DNA from: Opitutaceae bacterium
GTDB lineage: Bacteria > Verrucomicrobiota > Verrucomicrobiia > Opitutales > Opitutaceae
Length of the DNA: 55,277 nucleotides
Reading direction: 5' to 3'
Assembly: GCA_025360455.1 (NCBI GenBank)
Contig: JANYCF010000063.1
Span: 1-55,277, forward strand
Position numbers and translations under genes: made by a program. Below the pieces are notes generated by a model that saw nothing but the letters and a program-made list of their open reading frames with translations, was not told the origin of the DNA and did not search any database. Numbering within the stretch: position 1 is the stretch's first letter; each line of letters opens with the position of its first letter. Of the stretch, positions 14,921-22,754 are shown piece after piece.

Positions 14921-14983
14921 AGGCGCGTCGGGGACTCGAACCCCACGGGCTATCATCCGCTGGCACCCTGGCTCATCCGCGCC
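14921..14983 (-). other. tRNA-like relic, 63 bases
   Basis: On the minus strand a clean T-arm (GGGG TTCGAGT CCCC) is followed by CGCGCC. This pairs over six bases with GGCGCG placed 63 bases upstream, as an acceptor stem would. There is no room for a normal anticodon arm, the seventh acceptor pair is G-A and the 3' end reads TGCA rather than CCA. It is therefore not a working tRNA as far as I can see. It may be a decayed tRNA, an integration scar or an unusual structured RNA. Confidence 0.35.
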
Positions 14984-15007: not shown

Positions 15008-15703
15008 TCACCTCATTATCGGACATTCACCGCAATCCTGTAACTTTTTAACATTTCCGCCGCCAGGAGCTCTACACGATGAGATGTCCGTGTGAGTCGC
15101 CGGGCTGGTTTCTCCCAGAGTAAAACCCCAAGCCCCCACTCCACCCAGGACCATTCCGGCTAGCACGTCGACATCGGTGTGCTGCCGAAGTGCGACGATC
15201 GAAACACTAAGCACCCCTAGCCAGACTGCCAACAGTAGTCGTCCCATCAAGTTACGGAAAAATGAGCTGCTCGTGGCGAGCGCCCAAGTCGCGAGGACAG
15301 AAAAGGCGGCATGCAGACAGGGCATGCAATTATCGGACTGATCAACGATCAGTAGGATCGCATAGTAACGCGGCTGACCGTCGGCTGATGGCCGCACACA
15401 CGCGGTTGGATAAGCCAGGAATGTAATCCATCCCGTGAGCGCCATCGCCAGCAAGCAAATCGCAAATCGTTTCACCTGCTTCCATTCCCGCATGAAAAAC
15501 CACGGCAGCCCCACCAGTAGAAACATCGACACGTAAGGCCAAAGCCAGACCGTGTTAAATGGTAACCACCGCCAAGTCCAACACTCCTGACGTATCTCGG
15601 CCCGGGTTGCCACCAAATCTTGGATCAAGCGATACACAATAGTGGCGATCAATCCGACAAGGGCACCAAGTGCGAGTCTCTGAAAAAAAGGCCGAACCTT
15701 CAT
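15008..15703 (-). CDS. PAP2-superfamily membrane enzyme, IPC-synthase-like
   Basis: This is the last gene of the six-gene operon; its ATG overlaps the stop of the upstream hydrolase gene by four bases. The 231-residue protein has about five or six helices. Motifs resemble PAP2_3/Aur1-type enzymes: NCMPCLHAAFSVL with His131 in place of the usual PSLH, and RQHTDVDVLAG with His175 and Asp179. Such enzymes remove a phosphate from lipids or transfer a phospho-headgroup. The PS-to-PC change in the first motif is unusual. It may act on a lipid made by the upstream KAS III, reductase and glycosyltransferase, which is inference from operon structure. Confidence 0.75.
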   Translation of the reverse strand: MKVRPFFQRLALGALVGLIATIVYRLIQDLVATRAEIRQECWTWRWLPFNTVWLWPYVSMFLLVGLPWFFMREWKQVKRFAICLLAMALTGWITFLAYPTACVRPSADGQPRYYAILLIVDQSDNCMPCLHAAFSVLATWALATSSSFFRNLMGRLLLAVWLGVLSVSIVALRQHTDVDVLAGMVLGGVGAWGFTLGETSPATHTDISSCRAPGGGNVKKLQDCGECPIMR

Positions 15704-16536
15704 GGCTTGATTGCGGATTCCACCCCCAGCCCATTCAAATACGCACTGGCTCCGTCGTCATGGCAGGCGGTAATGGTGTAACGGCCATGTTGATACACGG
15801 CGCGAAGTTGATTAACCGTCTGGCGGTAGGCGTTCGCATCCCATTGCATCGCCATCGCGAGCCCGACGGGCTCAACGTTTCGTGTGATTTGGCAACCCCG
15901 CCAATAGGCGTCAGCGACGTAAAGTTGCGGGCCCGTTGATGCATTGAAAACCACGCCCAGTTGACCGGGCGCATGGCCGGGTAGCGGCACGAGTCCAATG
16001 CTCCCATCACCGAAAAGATCATGGAGCAGAAACGGCAAATCGGCGGTCGGAGCAAAAGACGTTGGGGAAATCACGTTCGCGCGATCAGGCAGCCAGTCCG
16101 GAATCAGCTTCGACAAAAAGGCGCCGTGGACCTGACGCACCGGGGAAAGTCGCTGGAGCGTTTGGAGTGCCTCCGCATGGAAATGAATCTTCGCCTGGGG
16201 GAATTCCGCCAAACCACCGACATGATCAGCGTGGAAATGCGTCACAATCACATGGCTGATTTCCCGCGCATCGATCCCGGCACCTGCCAGCATGGTTTTC
16301 ACGCTGCCCGCCTGCGTCGCGGGCGTGGCCCAACGGTAGAAGCGAGCGGGAAAGGAGCGGGTTGCCTCCTTGAAACTCGTGCCATAGCCGGTATCGATCA
16401 ACACCCAGCCTTCCCTCTCGTGCCTCAGTGCGAAAAAGACGGCTTGGAATCGGACCATCCGCCATGAACGTCCATCAATCATCCCCAGCAACTGGCGGCA
16501 GTATCCGCCTTCGAAGGCTTTGATTTGTGTGATCAT
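15700..16536 (-). CDS. Metallo-beta-lactamase-fold hydrolase (lactonase-like)
   Basis: This 278-residue protein has a full two-metal site of the MBL fold: His100-x-His102-x-Asp104-His105 (THFHADHVGGL), His188 (PGHAPGQLG), Asp209 (VADAYW) and His259 (ACHDD). The layout resembles AHL-lactonase-like and glyoxalase II-like enzymes that hydrolyse esters or lactones. No signal peptide is seen, so it is cytoplasmic. It overlaps its neighbours by ATGA on both sides. In the operon it could hydrolyse a thioester or ester intermediate; the substrate is unknown. Confidence 0.85.
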   Translation of the reverse strand: MITQIKAFEGGYCRQLLGMIDGRSWRMVRFQAVFFALRHEREGWVLIDTGYGTSFKEATRSFPARFYRWATPATQAGSVKTMLAGAGIDAREISHVIVTHFHADHVGGLAEFPQAKIHFHAEALQTLQRLSPVRQVHGAFLSKLIPDWLPDRANVISPTSFAPTADLPFLLHDLFGDGSIGLVPLPGHAPGQLGVVFNASTGPQLYVADAYWRGCQITRNVEPVGLAMAMQWDANAYRQTVNQLRAVYQHGRYTITACHDDGASAYLNGLGVESAIKP

Positions 16537-17513
16537 ATTTGAAAAAGTGCCGCCGCTTGGGTGTAACCAGCCGCCGTCCCGAGCAACAGCACCGGTGACC
16601 CAGTCGGCAGCCGACGTCGCACCGCATCAAGCACGTACGGTATACTCGCCGCCACCATGTTGCCATGCTCGGCAATGCTCACATGAAAACGATCCTCCGG
16701 CAAAGCCAGCCGACGTCGCATGAACTCCAGCGCGGGGCCCGACGCCTGGTGGGGCACTATATCAAGTTGATCCAGTCGGCCTCCTGTCTCGGCTAACACC
16801 TTCGCGAGTAAAGGAGGAAACAACTGGCTCGCCAATTTGTGCACCGCCTTTCCGTCCATGTGAAACTGGTACGCGCGACGGTGCGCCTCTTGATAAACCA
16901 TCGGCGGAAGCCGGTGTCCACCGCCACGCACCTCGCAGAGTCGACTGCCTTCGGCGTATGTCTCGAGTCGGAAACTGCAGGGATTGTCGCGACTGGCTGC
17001 TTCCAAAATGTACGCCGCAGCGCCGTCGCCCATGAGACACGCGCTTTCCGGTTCGTCCCAGTTTACACCTACCAGCGGAGTCTCAGCACAGACGAGCAAA
17101 GCTCGCTTCGCCGCTCCAGTAGCAAACAGCCCATTCACGACGTTCAGCGCTGTGACGAAACCCAGACAACTGGCGTGCACATCAAGGCAGGGAATGCCGC
17201 GCGCCTCCGCACCCAAAGTTTTCTGGATCAAGGCGGCATTGCACGGAATCGGTTGCTGCACACAAAGACTGGCATCCACGATTAAATCAATATCAGCCAA
17301 AGTTTGTTTCGCATCCATTAACGCAGCGAAACACACCTCGCGGGCCAAACGTTCCGCCTCTTCCGGTCCCGCCGCTTGATGGCGCGTGAGCACTCCCGTA
17401 TGCTTGGCCGTCCAACCTGGGTCCAAGCCGAGACGATGGTCGAGTTCACTCGCGCTAATTTTTCGCGCGGGTAAGGCGCGGGCGGAACCAATAATGATAA
17501 AATGCTGTTTCAT
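16533..17513 (-). CDS. Beta-ketoacyl-ACP synthase III-like condensing enzyme
   Basis: This 326-residue thiolase-fold enzyme has the KAS III triad visible: Cys116 (DVHASCLGFVTAL), His255 (IVPHQASGPAL) and Asn285 (EHGNMVAASIPYVL). The Gly-rich C-terminus (LLLGTAAGYTQAAAL) is also typical. KAS III enzymes join an acyl-CoA to malonyl-ACP, and OleA-like relatives join two acyl chains. No acyl carrier protein, FabD, OleB or OleC is adjacent, so it is not a normal fab or ole operon. It starts inside the stop of the glycosyltransferase gene (ATGA). It probably makes a beta-keto acyl product used by the reductase and glycosyltransferase of the same operon, which is inference. Confidence 0.87.
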   Translation of the reverse strand: MKQHFIIIGSARALPARKISASELDHRLGLDPGWTAKHTGVLTRHQAAGPEEAERLAREVCFAALMDAKQTLADIDLIVDASLCVQQPIPCNAALIQKTLGAEARGIPCLDVHASCLGFVTALNVVNGLFATGAAKRALLVCAETPLVGVNWDEPESACLMGDGAAAYILEAASRDNPCSFRLETYAEGSRLCEVRGGGHRLPPMVYQEAHRRAYQFHMDGKAVHKLASQLFPPLLAKVLAETGGRLDQLDIVPHQASGPALEFMRRRLALPEDRFHVSIAEHGNMVAASIPYVLDAVRRRLPTGSPVLLLGTAAGYTQAAALFQI

Positions 17514-18658
17514 GACCGAAGATATTCAAATTGATTAAACTGATGGACGCGGATCTTGCGCCGCCGCCACCAGATGACCGGATAAAGTGATGCGCCAACG
17601 AGAAAGAACGGTTGAAAGATTTCGGTGAAAACTGAAGCCAACGGTGAATGACGATACGCTCCTGTCATCACGCGATTGATTAGCCCAAGTGTGAGCGCTC
17701 GCAGCCCCAACACCGCGAACAATGACCAAGCGGCACATGGCCAACTCAGGCTTGCCATCAATCCAAGACTGATCAGCAGCGCCGGGTGTAAGCCATACGC
17801 CAAAACCAAAGCCGTTTGAACAACCCACGATTCATTTTGCACGAGCAGGCGCGTACAGACAAACCACCGATGCATCAACCGCCGGTAATGAGTCAGCGAC
17901 GTAACCGTGGTACTGATGAACTGGGGGCGCGTAGTCTGCACGATGCGCCCTCCCCGCTGACGAATGGCTTTCGCAATAGCCAGATCGTCAGTGATTGAGC
18001 GATTCGTGATGGCGAATAAATTCATTTCACGAACATAATCCGTCCGTACGACGTAGCACATGCCATTGATCGAAAGCGGCTCGGTCCACACTGTCGCGGG
18101 AAGATAAGTCAGTATGGCCGCCGAGTTCACAAATTCGGCTACCAACTGACTCCAGCCACCTCGCGCCGGCACATAGCAGGGCAAACCGGTGGCAATGTCG
18201 GCGCCCTCATCCACGGCCTTTATCAGTAGTTGTAGGGATAGCTGAGGTACCAGCGTGTCATCATCAATGATCGCGATCAATTCAGTACAAACAAACGGTA
18301 ATGCGGCATCTTGCTTCCACAATTTCGGATTAATCCCGTCCGGAGGTTCCTCAACACCCAGAATAGAAATACCCCGGCCCGAGTATTGTACCTTCAGGGA
18401 TTCACATAATTCCCGCGCGATCACATCAGTCTGATCAACGACCCAGATCAGAGCAGCGCCATTGAGTTCCGCTAGATTGTTCTGCAAAATCGCACCGAGC
18501 TTTTCATCCCCGCTGGTAACCGGTTGAATGACCGTCAATCGTTCCATCACAGCCGATTTTTCGGGCAATACTTTACGTGCTCGGCGGATCAATGCCAACA
18601 CAGACTTCACCCAGAGCCGTGCGAGATACCCCGCACCAATGACGAGAGCGACGTTCAT
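17510..18658 (-). CDS. Glycosyltransferase, ceramide glucosyltransferase-like (GT21-type)
   Basis: This 382-residue membrane-bound GT-A enzyme has an N-terminal membrane helix. The nucleotide-sugar site is IIDDDTLVP with Asp132-Asp134. Further on come SINGMCYVVR, an ITDDLAIAKAIRQRGG motif with Asp224/Asp225, then HYRRLMHRWF (257-266), matching the place of the (Q/R)xxRW signature of GT21 but with Leu at the first position. Three or so C-terminal helices follow. GT21/HpnI-like enzymes glycosylate ceramides or similar lipids at the inner membrane. It sits between the reductase and KAS III genes with ATGA overlaps, so a lipid acceptor made by this operon is likely. Confidence 0.82.
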   Translation of the reverse strand: MNVALVIGAGYLARLWVKSVLALIRRARKVLPEKSAVMERLTVIQPVTSGDEKLGAILQNNLAELNGAALIWVVDQTDVIARELCESLKVQYSGRGISILGVEEPPDGINPKLWKQDAALPFVCTELIAIIDDDTLVPQLSLQLLIKAVDEGADIATGLPCYVPARGGWSQLVAEFVNSAAILTYLPATVWTEPLSINGMCYVVRTDYVREMNLFAITNRSITDDLAIAKAIRQRGGRIVQTTRPQFISTTVTSLTHYRRLMHRWFVCTRLLVQNESWVVQTALVLAYGLHPALLISLGLMASLSWPCAAWSLFAVLGLRALTLGLINRVMTGAYRHSPLASVFTEIFQPFFLVGASLYPVIWWRRRKIRVHQFNQFEYLRS

Positions 18659-19599
18659 GACGGCTGGCTTTGTTGCCAGTGAACAAAACGCTCGACCCCT
18701 TCGGTCAGCGAGACAGAAGGCTGGCCCAAATCTCGCAAGGCCTTAGCGACATTAAATGTTTTCGAATATGCAAAGACACTGACGCCAAAACGTGTCAGCG
18801 GAGGTTCGCCAAGAAACGGCAGTAGGCTAAAAATCTTCTCCGCCAACAGCGCAGCAAACATCGCCCGTTCGACTGGTATACGCCGATGGGACGCCGGCAT
18901 TCCCAGCTTGGCAAACACCGTATCGAGAAATTCGAGAATCGGCACAGGCTCATTGTTCGTCAGCAAATAGAGTCCGGTCGCGCGGCAATTGATTATCCTC
19001 AGCAGATAATCCACCAAACTATCGATATAAATCAAATCCCCCAGAACAGTCTGCTTTGATTCAATCCTAGGGAGACGGCCACTGCGCGCGGCGCGAAGAA
19101 TCCGCGGAAACACCACGGTATCGCCCGGACCAAACACCGCCCGGGGACGAACAATGCACCAAAGACCGGAATACGACCGAACCACCATCTCGGCATCTCG
19201 CTTGGTGGCTGCGTACTGATTGATAGATTTTTCCGGAAGCGGCGTCTGCTCATCCAACCCGATCTGATGCACATCGGCGTACATGACTGCGCTTGTCGAA
19301 ATATAGAGCAGGAAAGGCCGGCCATGAGTCTCGCAATAGCTCACGACATTCTGAGTTGCCGTCACATTTTGTGCGACAAATTCACCGCGTGCCCCCCAGG
19401 GCGAGGAGCGCGCGGCCGCATGGACCACCACCTCCGGTATCACGTCCATATCGAGCCCTTTCGTCAAATCACCCGAGATATAATTCTTCTCGGCCTGAGT
19501 CCGTCTCCCTAATGCAGTCACGTCATGCCCCGCAGCTTCTGCGGCCCGCCACAACGCGCCTCCGACAAACCCTGAGGCCCCGGTGATCAAAAGTTTCAT
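18655..19599 (-). CDS. NAD(P)-dependent epimerase/3beta-HSD family oxidoreductase
   Basis: This 314-residue extended short-chain dehydrogenase has the nucleotide motif TGASGFVG at residues 7-14 and the catalytic YxxxK (INQYAATKRDAE). The C-terminal part (FAYSKTFNVAKALRDLGQPSVSLTEGVER) is typical of the 3beta-HSD/OleD branch that handles hydrophobic keto or hydroxy substrates. The gene is the second of the operon. It overlaps marR upstream and the glycosyltransferase downstream by four bases each. A likely role is reduction of the beta-keto product of the KAS III enzyme; this is inference. Confidence 0.85.
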   Translation of the reverse strand: MKLLITGASGFVGGALWRAAEAAGHDVTALGRRTQAEKNYISGDLTKGLDMDVIPEVVVHAAARSSPWGARGEFVAQNVTATQNVVSYCETHGRPFLLYISTSAVMYADVHQIGLDEQTPLPEKSINQYAATKRDAEMVVRSYSGLWCIVRPRAVFGPGDTVVFPRILRAARSGRLPRIESKQTVLGDLIYIDSLVDYLLRIINCRATGLYLLTNNEPVPILEFLDTVFAKLGMPASHRRIPVERAMFAALLAEKIFSLLPFLGEPPLTRFGVSVFAYSKTFNVAKALRDLGQPSVSLTEGVERFVHWQQSQPS

Positions 19600-20093
19600 G
19601 ATCGGTTTTGTTTATGCGATTGACGCTTTTTATCGGGTGACGAGGCAAGGATGGTACTCACCGCGCCGTGGGCGGCGCGCTGGATTTCATGCAATGCCGC
19701 CGTAAGAGGAACGATGACCTGAGGATCCAAGCCACGCGCCATCTCGCGTAATGCGGCCAGATACAATGGGGCCACCTGCCCGTGGAATTTGCGCCCCAGC
19801 GGTGTCAGCCCAATGCACCAGGCACGGCGGTCTTCCGGATCTTCCTCCCGTTTCACCCAACCCAACTCGACCATCCGATCAACCACATATGTCGCGCTAG
19901 AGGGATCAACCACCAATTCCTTCGCCAAGGCGGTAGAGCTCATTCCCTGCCGTGCCTCCGCCAAAACATTCAACACATTAAATTGGGCCGCACTGATACG
20001 ATAAGGCTTAAACAACCGTCCGGCCTCCCGTAGCAGGGCCCCACCCGATGAGATAATCGCGCTAGTCAAATTCTCGATGTGTTCACTTTCCAT
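19596..20093 (-). CDS. MarR-family transcriptional regulator
   Basis: This 165-residue winged-helix repressor has the recognition region RQGMSSTALAKELVVDPSSATYVVDRMVELGWVKREEDPEDRRAWCIGLTPLG, typical of MarR proteins, which bind a small, often phenolic or lipid-like, ligand. It is the first gene of the six-gene operon and its stop overlaps the start of the reductase gene (ATGA). An inverted repeat 11 bases before its ATG (20105-20118) is a good candidate for its own operator, so it probably controls the whole operon. The C-terminus is basic (SSPDKKRQSHKQNRS). Confidence 0.92.
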   Translation of the reverse strand: MESEHIENLTSAIISSGGALLREAGRLFKPYRISAAQFNVLNVLAEARQGMSSTALAKELVVDPSSATYVVDRMVELGWVKREEDPEDRRAWCIGLTPLGRKFHGQVAPLYLAALREMARGLDPQVIVPLTAALHEIQRAAHGAVSTILASSPDKKRQSHKQNRS

Positions 20094-20378: not shown

Positions 20379-20462
20379 TGGTGCTCGGGACAGGAGTCGA
20401 ACCTGCACGCCTTACGGCACGGGCTTCTAAGACCCGTATGTCTGCCATTCCATCACCCGAGC
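20379..20462 (-). tRNA. tRNA-Leu, anticodon UAG
   Basis: A complete class II cloverleaf is visible on the minus strand. The seven-pair acceptor stem is GCTCGGG/CCCGAGC, the anticodon stem CGGGT/GCCCG has loop CTTAGAA giving anticodon TAG (reads CUA), the long variable arm is TGCCGTAAGGCG and the T-loop is TTCGACT. The discriminator is A and the CCA end is encoded (20379-20381). The molecule is 84 bases with CCA. It reads in the same direction as marR and the GH2 gene. Confidence 0.95.
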
Positions 20463-20639: not shown

Positions 20640-22754
20640 CTATTTTATTGGAGTCGCTGGCTCATACACCGGCTGATAGGCCCAGCGACACTCATCTTTT
20701 AACTCTTGGCCGGCCCGAGTGGCACGGGCTTCAATTCGGTTTTCGCCCTGCGTTAAAATTATCTCAGACCAAACGAATACACCTCTCTTCCCGATCTGGC
20801 GACCTTGAGTCACGCCGTTGACAAACAGCTCTACCGTCTCGGCGTTGGCATACACCTTCACCGGGGTCTTGGGCTGGGTGCGCACTGAGAAACGCCGGCT
20901 CGCAATATGCAGCACAGGTTGCGCGCTCCAGTTGGCTTGATAAAAATAAAAGGCATCCTTCCGCGTTTTCCGATCAGCGGTGACGAGACCCTTGTCGTTG
21001 ATCCCGGGAGTGCCGCCTTCATTGCGACCATCACTGGCGAAATCGAACATACACCACACGAGCTTGCTCCACATCCACGGTCGCGCGGCGAGAGCGGACC
21101 AATACACTTCATGGTAATGGGCCTGCCATTCCTCGGGATGCCATTGGCCGTTGGGTTCGGGTTTCTTGAGCGGCTCCTCGTGCTGAGTAATATTCGCCCC
21201 GGCGCCGTACTCGCTCATGCCGATCCGCAAATCCTGACGCAGGGCGTGCTGCTCGTCCGCCCAGTTGGCAAATTCTTCCGCTGCCCCGTGGTACCAACCG
21301 AAATAGTGATTGAAGCCAACCACGTCGGTCGCGCCCGCCCGAGGCTCGGTCACGTTGCCATTGCTGGCATAAGTGGAAAGCCGGGTGGGATCTTCCTCGC
21401 GCACGACGGGGGCGAGCTCGCGCAACAAACGATCATTCGCGTCGGCGGGCATCGCCTTGGGGTCGCGCACGAAAGTTTCATTGCCGATGCTCCAGAAGCA
21501 AATCGCCGGGTGATGATAATTTTGACGGATCAACTCACGCAGTTGCTCTTTCGCATTCTCGCAAAACTCGCGGTTGTCGCGCACGTCGTTCACGTAGGCG
21601 AGTTCAGCCCACATCACCATCCCGCGTTGATCGCCAAGATCATTCCACGACTGGGACTGTTGATAGTGCGACTGACGGACGAAGGTCGCTCCCATGTCCT
21701 CGATCAGCGCAAAATCTTCCCGCTCCTCCTTCTCGCCGATAGCCCAGCCTTGGCCCGGCCGGTCTTGGTGACGGTTGACGCCATGCAAATCAAGGTAATG
21801 CCCGTTGAGAAAAAAACCTTTGGCCGCATCGACGGAATAATAACGCAACCCGAGCGGCACCACCACCCCATCGCGCACCTTGCCTTGCTCGAGCAACTCC
21901 GTGCGCACCTGATAAAGATAAGGATCGGCCTGTGCATTCCACAGATGTGGTTTGGCGATTGCCAAGTGCAACCGTGCCTCCTCACGCGCCAATGGTTCGA
22001 GCGCCGCTCCGGTCTCACCGCTCGACACGATTTGCCCGTTCGCATCAGTCACGGTCACGCGCACCCGCACGGATGCAGCCGCCGTTTGATCGTTCGCCAG
22101 TTTGACGCTCACGTCCAGTTGCGCGGCAGTTTCTGATACAGCCCAAGGCCGGACATAAACTCCCGGCGAAGCATAATCGAGCAGATCAATATGCACGGGA
22201 GCAGTCGCCACTAAGCTGACTGCCCGATAAAGTCCGCCGAAAAAAGTGTAGTCGGCGCTGACGGGTATCATGTTGTCGCCGCTGCGATTGTTCACCCGCA
22301 CCGCGAGGATATTGTCACCGGACAAATTGAGCGCGGTTGTAACATCGAATCGAAACCGGGCAAAGCCGCCCCGGTGTTCACCGAGGCGCTGACCATTCAG
22401 GAAAACTTCCGCGCTCCGGCTGGCTCCGTCGAATTGCAGAAAAACGCGCCGACCAACCCAGCCCGACTCGACGCGAAACTTCCGCCGATACCAGCCATCG
22501 CCCCGAAAATAATCGCCCCCGCCATCCTCGCCATCGCGCGCATTCCACGTATGCGGCAGCGCAATCGATTCCCAAGCAGCGTCATTGAAAGTCATTTCCG
22601 AAGCGCGGGCATCCGGGCCACGCTGGAATTTCCAGCCATCCACCATACCTATTTCCTGACGGAGTACGTTGGAAGCTACCTCTGCGGCAGCGGGCAGACC
22701 AGGTAAGACAAGGAGGCAAAGTAACCCAAGGTGAAATCGGCGGATGAATGTCAT
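20640..22754 (-). CDS. Secreted glycoside hydrolase family 2 enzyme
   Basis: This 704-residue enzyme has a Sec signal peptide (LLCLLVLPGLPAAAE, cut near residue 24). The domain order is that of GH2: a sugar-binding jelly roll (about 40-185), an Ig-like domain (190-305), then a TIM barrel. The acid/base Glu426 lies in HHPAICFWSIGNE and the nucleophile is probably Glu515 in GMSEYGAGA. A C-terminal Ig-like domain follows. Activity would be beta-galactosidase, beta-glucuronidase or similar; the specificity cannot be read off. It lies downstream of the STN-type TonB receptor gene, but a strong intrinsic terminator stands between them, so it may have its own promoter in the AT-rich 22755-22790 stretch. 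Confidence 0.92.
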   Translation of the reverse strand: MTFIRRFHLGLLCLLVLPGLPAAAEVASNVLRQEIGMVDGWKFQRGPDARASEMTFNDAAWESIALPHTWNARDGEDGGGDYFRGDGWYRRKFRVESGWVGRRVFLQFDGASRSAEVFLNGQRLGEHRGGFARFRFDVTTALNLSGDNILAVRVNNRSGDNMIPVSADYTFFGGLYRAVSLVATAPVHIDLLDYASPGVYVRPWAVSETAAQLDVSVKLANDQTAAASVRVRVTVTDANGQIVSSGETGAALEPLAREEARLHLAIAKPHLWNAQADPYLYQVRTELLEQGKVRDGVVVPLGLRYYSVDAAKGFFLNGHYLDLHGVNRHQDRPGQGWAIGEKEEREDFALIEDMGATFVRQSHYQQSQSWNDLGDQRGMVMWAELAYVNDVRDNREFCENAKEQLRELIRQNYHHPAICFWSIGNETFVRDPKAMPADANDRLLRELAPVVREEDPTRLSTYASNGNVTEPRAGATDVVGFNHYFGWYHGAAEEFANWADEQHALRQDLRIGMSEYGAGANITQHEEPLKKPEPNGQWHPEEWQAHYHEVYWSALAARPWMWSKLVWCMFDFASDGRNEGGTPGINDKGLVTADRKTRKDAFYFYQANWSAQPVLHIASRRFSVRTQPKTPVKVYANAETVELFVNGVTQGRQIGKRGVFVWSEIILTQGENRIEARATRAGQELKDECRWAYQPVYEPATPIK

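Follow-up and report, generated by a model that had tools for sequence, protein, structure and literature searches.

A six-gene Opitutaceae operon of putative lipid function built on a recurrent KAS III, SDR and MBL core

We have analysed a 55,277-nucleotide stretch of DNA from an Opitutaceae bacterium (assembly GCA_025360455.1, contig JANYCF010000063.1, positions 1 to 55,277; hereafter the window). Six genes on its minus strand, spanning positions 20093 down to 15008, encode in order a MarR-family regulator, an extended short-chain dehydrogenase/reductase (SDR), a GT21 membrane glycosyltransferase, a ketoacyl synthase III (KAS III), a metallo-beta-lactamase (MBL)-fold hydrolase and a PAP2-superfamily membrane protein (Table 1). 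KAS III, SDR and MBL are the core of this operon, and GT21 and PAP2 are exchangeable accessories. What was observed directly is the gene content and its coupling, the conservation of the catalytic residues, the recurrence and co-inheritance of the core and the swapping of the accessories. Our best guess from the sequence at the product of the operon is a dedicated glycolipid or hydroxy lipid. An earlier note on the window had described the six genes with their coordinates, order and five ATGA junctions, all of which hold, and the family names it gave them agree with Pfam and NCBIfam.

A conserved core with exchangeable accessory genes

With a single KAS query, the KAS III gene was found in 4 of 387 genomes drawn evenly from the host phylum (E ≤ 1e-60), all four from the host family, and in 13 of 252 genomes of that family (E ≤ 1e-50). 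At these 13 loci, where the neighbouring genes were read by tblastn (E ≤ 1e-4), an SDR gene is always present, starting within 5.6 kb of the start of the KAS gene. An MBL gene lies within 2 kb of the KAS gene at 12 of them; at the remaining locus (G517) the contig stops inside the KAS gene. The window conforms to this arrangement at positions 15700-19599, with a KAS III that has the Cys-His-Asn residues lying beside an SDR and an MBL. By way of control, no cassette gene was seen within 4 kb of the other KAS III of the host (31% identical).

The accessory genes are more variable. GT21 is seen at four of the 13 family loci (the host genome, G000, together with G088, G593 and G439) and PAP2 at two (G000 and G010), with both together only in the window. 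The expectation of the earlier note that all five enzymes would co-occur is therefore borne out for KAS III, SDR and MBL but not for GT21 and PAP2, and the notion of one fixed five-enzyme set is rejected. An ATP-grasp and a GNAT gene are found at eight of the loci. A MarR gene was detected in the window alone, although a diverged regulator could be missed at the tblastn threshold used, and the complete gene set of the window was seen in no other locus read. In four loci from one genus (L029 to L032) the ATP-grasp and GNAT genes sit between SDR and KAS in the opposite orientation, and a Rieske-type gene is present in the three of these that were inspected (L029, L030 and L031), the L030 copy being confirmed by Pfam. 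An MMPL gene, for which the best NCBIfam match is MmpL3 (221.9 bits against a cutoff of 1400), overlaps the SDR gene in L011 and comes after the MBL gene in L034. The latter is an expanded family locus, where genes for KAS, SDR, MBL, the MMPL transporter, a P450, a Rieske protein and a GT1-type transferase stand one after another.

The core outside the host family

Some KAS match was found in 344 plasmid records. Seven of them were read, and the core is present in six of these seven, as well as in two Janthinobacterium genomes. A row of KAS, SDR and MBL followed by an F390 synthetase-related enzyme is seen in Janthinobacterium (L008, with L007 a near-duplicate), Escherichia coli (L012 and L037), Burkholderia stagnalis (L013), Paracoccus alcaliphilus (L014) and Ketogulonicigenium (L018). 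Pontibacillus (L015) and Paenibacillus (L016) share this row with the addition of an inserted ATP-grasp gene. In L014 and L018, both of them plasmids of Rhodobacterales, genes for a sulfotransferase and a TetR-type regulator are positioned divergently, upstream of the KAS gene. In E. coli ABU 83972 (L037) the row is part of a seven-gene lipid-type cluster between narI and the tRNA-Tyr/purU region. Of 5426 complete E. coli genomes, 671 match this form, which includes PAP2, a fatty acid hydroxylase and a desaturase, across 80% or more of its length. The open-access literature searched yielded no description of the cassette or of its E. coli form, which is not proof of absence.

The F390 synthetase-related family (TIGR02304) is not represented in the window operon and has no match in the host genome, the assembly of which is 93% complete in 405 contigs. 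ATP-grasp likewise gave no match there, in a search without a positive control. The two forms meet in the genome G254, which belongs to a different family in the class of the host and alone among the 387 phylum genomes exceeds the TIGR02304 cutoff; here the gene order is KAS-MBL-F390-SDR-GT21-X197-MGT. The presence of GT21 and the F390 enzyme together in this genome links the two forms, which are thus variants of a single type of cluster. The G254 SDR, which directly adjoins GT21, groups with the SDRs of the Opitutaceae, the GT21-bearing family, whereas the KAS and MBL of G254 have other affinities. This shows piecewise exchange, and the position and grouping of the SDR hint at consecutive action of SDR and GT21. 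X197, a protein of about 200 residues, adjoins GT21 in three loci (Table 1); the L010 copy matches no Pfam or NCBIfam family.

Over 20 loci, with L007 omitted as a near-duplicate of L008, the tree distances of the core proteins are correlated (KAS-SDR 0.81, KAS-MBL 0.91 and SDR-MBL 0.81), and none of 5000 permutations gave values as high. Among nine close family loci the corresponding correlations are 0.92, 0.88 and 0.84, with 0, 0 and 1 of 5000 permutations as high.

Operon layout and surroundings

Each of the five junctions in the operon is an exact 4-base ATGA overlap. A crude set of 34 open reading frames from the window contains ten pairs of close neighbours on one strand; seven of these show the same overlap, five of the seven being within the operon. 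The overlaps by themselves are thus not exceptional in the window, and tell us hardly anything beyond the existence of an operon. The reappearance of the KAS-SDR-MBL core in distant genomes, on the other hand, exceeds chance, and its genes there frequently overlap or nearly touch as well.

Table 1. Features of the operon and its surroundings in the window, and of related loci
Feature	Sequence	Positions	Strand	Evidence
MarR-family regulator, first gene of the operon	Window	19596-20093	-	PF12802 55.1 bits; PF01047 52 bits
Extended SDR, OleD-like, core	Window	18655-19599	-	PF01370 103 bits; OleD best NCBIfam model; Tyr129/Lys133
GT21 membrane glycosyltransferase, accessory	Window	17510-18658	-	PF13506 84.2 bits
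KAS III, FabH-like, core	Window	16533-17513	-	NF005541/PRK07204 291.8 bits; Cys116-His255-Asn285
MBL-fold hydrolase, lactonase/thioesterase-like, core	Window	15700-16536	-	PF00753 71.6 bits
PAP2-superfamily membrane protein, last gene of the operon, accessory	Window	15008-15703	-	PF01569 31.5 bits; PF14378 28.5 bits
Large gene, putative beta-galactosidase-type glycoside hydrolase	Window	20640-22754		Reading by eye
tRNA-Leu gene	Window	20379-20462	-	
tRNA-like element, 62 bases	Window	14922-14983	-	Rfam mascRNA 23.2 bits
X197	L010	8867-9460		
X197	L028	8447-9115		
X197	L048	6622-7110		
Expanded family locus	L034	9732-18881		
Seven-gene lipid-type cluster, E. coli ABU 83972	L037	4001-10882		

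The genes flanking the operon, an MFS transporter and the large putative glycoside hydrolase gene, do not look related to it. The tRNA-Leu gene lies on the MarR side. Directly past the other end of the operon is the tRNA-like element, which has an acceptor-type stem, a T arm and a short middle. Its Rfam score is under the gathering score of 42.5, it folds no better than shuffled sequences and it is present as a single copy in the genome. A search for a MarR operator gave just two short palindromes, and scans for promoters and terminators gave 3 against 3.2 expected and 8 against 6.6 expected, respectively. Neither a long identical direct-repeat pair around the operon nor a step in GC content was found that would mark the boundaries of an island. 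Congeners showed no empty site: G181, G425 and G169 have the relatives of the flanking gene pair far apart or on separate contigs, and G330 lacks one of the two.

Families and catalytic residues of the operon proteins

The KAS III scores highest against the PRK07204 model, under its cutoff of 402. Its nearest relative of solved structure is 3-oxoacyl-ACP synthase 3 (FabH; 145.3 bits), followed by ketosynthases such as 4v2p and CorB, whereas it scores about 39 bits against 3row and its kin, which we take to be OleA structures. Judged by these alignments it is closer to FabH than to OleA. The three catalytic residues are at the positions given in the earlier note and are identical in all 20 core loci compared. 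Tyr129 and Lys133 of the SDR are similarly retained in 20 of 20, and the match of this protein to the OleD model (165.8 bits) is far under the cutoff of 580. The MBL has the acyl-homoserine lactone (AHL) lactonases as its nearest solved relatives (37.4 bits). Its HFHADH motif (H100, H102, D104 and H105), also noted earlier, is identical in 20 of 20 core loci, and the full set of six metal-site residues (HxHxDH, His188 and Asp209) is likewise present in all 20. The last His is visible by eye in 19 of the 20 frames, that of L028 being interrupted by masked bases.

Of the accessories, the membrane glycosyltransferase is placed in GT21 by both profile and motifs, its PF13506 score being well above the cutoff of 21.7. 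Residues 69-370 align with ceramide glucosyltransferase (38.8 bits), which makes a hydrophobic acceptor likely. The enzyme retains the RW motif and, at the D3 position, an acidic residue; the DDDT, DDLA and HRW motifs are found in relatives. In what we take to be the (Q/R)xxRW motif of GT21, the first residue is Leu in the window protein. The PAP2 scores are barely over the cutoffs and no solved relative was found by sequence at E ≤ 1, but the motifs NCxPxLH and RxHxxxD are present in six of six aligned relatives. These motifs would fit a phosphatase or a head-group transferase, and cannot separate the two.

A model for the pathway and its alternatives

The operon is quite possibly a specialised-lipid pathway that makes a membrane glycolipid, starting from the conserved three-enzyme module. 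We infer every reaction, the order of the steps, the chain length and the product. KAS III would condense an acyl-coenzyme A (CoA) or acyl-acyl carrier protein (ACP) with malonyl-ACP or malonyl-CoA to give a beta-ketoacyl thioester; its intact Cys-His-Asn residues argue for carbon-carbon bond formation, for which they are established in FabH. OleD-type SDRs reduce beta-keto acyl groups, and the SDR would reduce the new ketone to a hydroxyl. The MBL would then cleave the thioester, or a lactone derived from it, releasing a beta-hydroxy acid; PqsE is an MBL thioesterase that acts on the product of PqsD. Enzymes of the GT21 family attach sugars to membrane-bound alcohols, as established for ceramide glucosyltransferase, and in the window GT21 would add a sugar, in the membrane, to the hydroxyl-bearing lipid. 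PAP2 may remove or transfer a phosphate-type head group. In the relatives, the later steps would presumably be taken by other enzymes: the adenylate-forming F390-like ligase, ATP-grasp and GNAT, GT1-type transferases, oxygenases and an MMPL exporter. The fatty acid hydroxylase, fatty acid desaturase and MMPL transporter at other loci are partners of the type expected for a lipid.

Several observations weigh against this model. The SDR is similar to sterol and sugar enzymes too, and could oxidise rather than reduce. As the relatives of the MBL are lactonases, the released group could be a lactone, and as GT21 and PAP2 are missing from most relatives, the product of the core would not always be glycosylated. 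Paracoccus sp. TOH (L017) carries KAS alone. Shared species history feeds the correlation between trees, so that this shows the core travelling together rather than interaction between its members. The AlphaFold models of PAP2 and MBL, made from three-row alignments, are of low confidence, with mean predicted local distance difference test (pLDDT) values of 47.9 and 42.1, respectively.

An alternative that would seem unlikely is that KAS III joins two fatty acyl chains and the OleD-like SDR reduces the product to a 2-alkyl-3-hydroxy acid resembling a corynomycolate. The MBL would stand in OleB's place and the F390-like ligase of the relatives in OleC's, and in the window the acid would be kept and glycosylated with no olefin formed. 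OleD is indeed the best match of the SDR, and the E. coli SDR scores 154.3 bits against a Shewanella OleD-type model. KAS, SDR, the adenylate-forming enzyme and the hydrolase adjoin one another in the Proteobacterial form, and the MMPL transporters at two family loci resemble the mycolate exporter MmpL3. The preference of the KAS III for FabH over the presumed OleA entries, the distance of the SDR from the OleD cutoff and the lack of an F390 match in the host genome all argue the other way. That the core makes a small secreted compound, a signal or an antibiotic that is, for example, butyrolactone- or pyrone-like, is a rather poor prospect; the MBL would then be a lactonase or thioesterase, and the other genes would tailor the product. 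The kinship of the MBL with AHL lactonases and of the KAS III with 4v2p and CorB would suit it, as would the sporadic distribution in the phylum and the highly variable tailoring genes (P450, Rieske and GT1 in L034), but GT21, PAP2, the fatty acid hydroxylase, the desaturase and MMPL suggest membrane lipids instead.

It is improbable that the product is a sphingolipid-like, ceramide-type compound, for which GT21 would be the ceramide glucosyltransferase and PAP2 the head-group transferase. The alignment of GT21 with ceramide glucosyltransferase fits this assignment, PF14378 takes in proteins like inositol phosphorylceramide synthase, and the E. coli PAP2 weakly matches the phosphoinositol dihydroceramide synthase model (20.6 bits, cutoff 480). 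These scores are weak, however, and the operon has no serine palmitoyltransferase or ceramide synthase, a genome-wide search for which was not made. Tailoring of hopanoids or sterols, with an HpnA/SdmB-like SDR and an HpnI-like GT21, is very improbable. HpnA gives 88.2 bits to the SDR, HpnI gives 46.7 bits to GT21 and the L030 Rieske enzyme resembles 4beta-methylsterol monooxygenase (58.2 bits), but all are far under the respective cutoffs of 367.65, 310 and 600, and KAS III and MBL would have no role. Hopene cyclase (TIGR01507) has no match in the host genome, which makes a hopanoid acceptor unlikely. None was over the cutoff in any of the 14 cassette genomes; the control is weak, since 14 named control genomes likewise gave none.

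To return to the glycolipid model, it may be, though we put this forward tentatively, that the window is the glycolipid branch of a widespread undescribed lipid pathway, in which the exchangeable KAS III-SDR-MBL core makes a hydroxyacyl building block. Bacteria would then add different ligases, sugars, oxidations and exporters to this core to give a new lipid class, found from the Opitutaceae through to roughly an eighth of complete E. coli genomes, and a single conserved enzyme trio would account for many scattered and vaguely annotated gene clusters. The product would be testable in easy laboratory hosts, where comparison of the accessory sets would reveal the role of each added enzyme.

Comparison with known systems

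The earlier note had described the operon as dedicated to a lipid-type product, with no OleB, OleC or carrier protein among its genes, and had set it apart from the ole pathway; this description is upheld. With oleABCD it shares a KAS III-superfamily enzyme and an OleD-like SDR. It differs in that the KAS is closer to FabH, an MBL replaces the alpha/beta hydrolase and there is no adenylate-forming enzyme; neither of the latter two families is found among the six operon proteins (a genome-wide search was not made). With a FabH-like KAS, an OleD score below cutoff and no OleB or OleC in the cluster, membership of the ole pathway is rejected. The hopanoid enzymes HpnA and HpnI are an SDR and a GT21 of the same broad families, but the scores of the window proteins, far below the cutoffs, and the absence of any hopene cyclase match from the host genome distinguish the two systems. 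The pqs system also pairs a KAS III-type enzyme (PqsD, 102.1 bits to the window KAS III) with an MBL hydrolase; the window differs in having an SDR, GT21 and PAP2, and no anthranilate genes were seen in the operon. The E. coli KAS III (PRK07204)-SDR-MBL-F390 (TIGR02304) cassette beside narI is annotated but unnamed. Unlike cassettes of this type, the window has GT21 and MarR and is without the F390 enzyme, fatty acid hydroxylase and desaturase, but the two have in common the same KAS III, SDR and MBL families with the same catalytic residues, tight coupling of the genes and, in several of the cassettes, a PAP2 protein.

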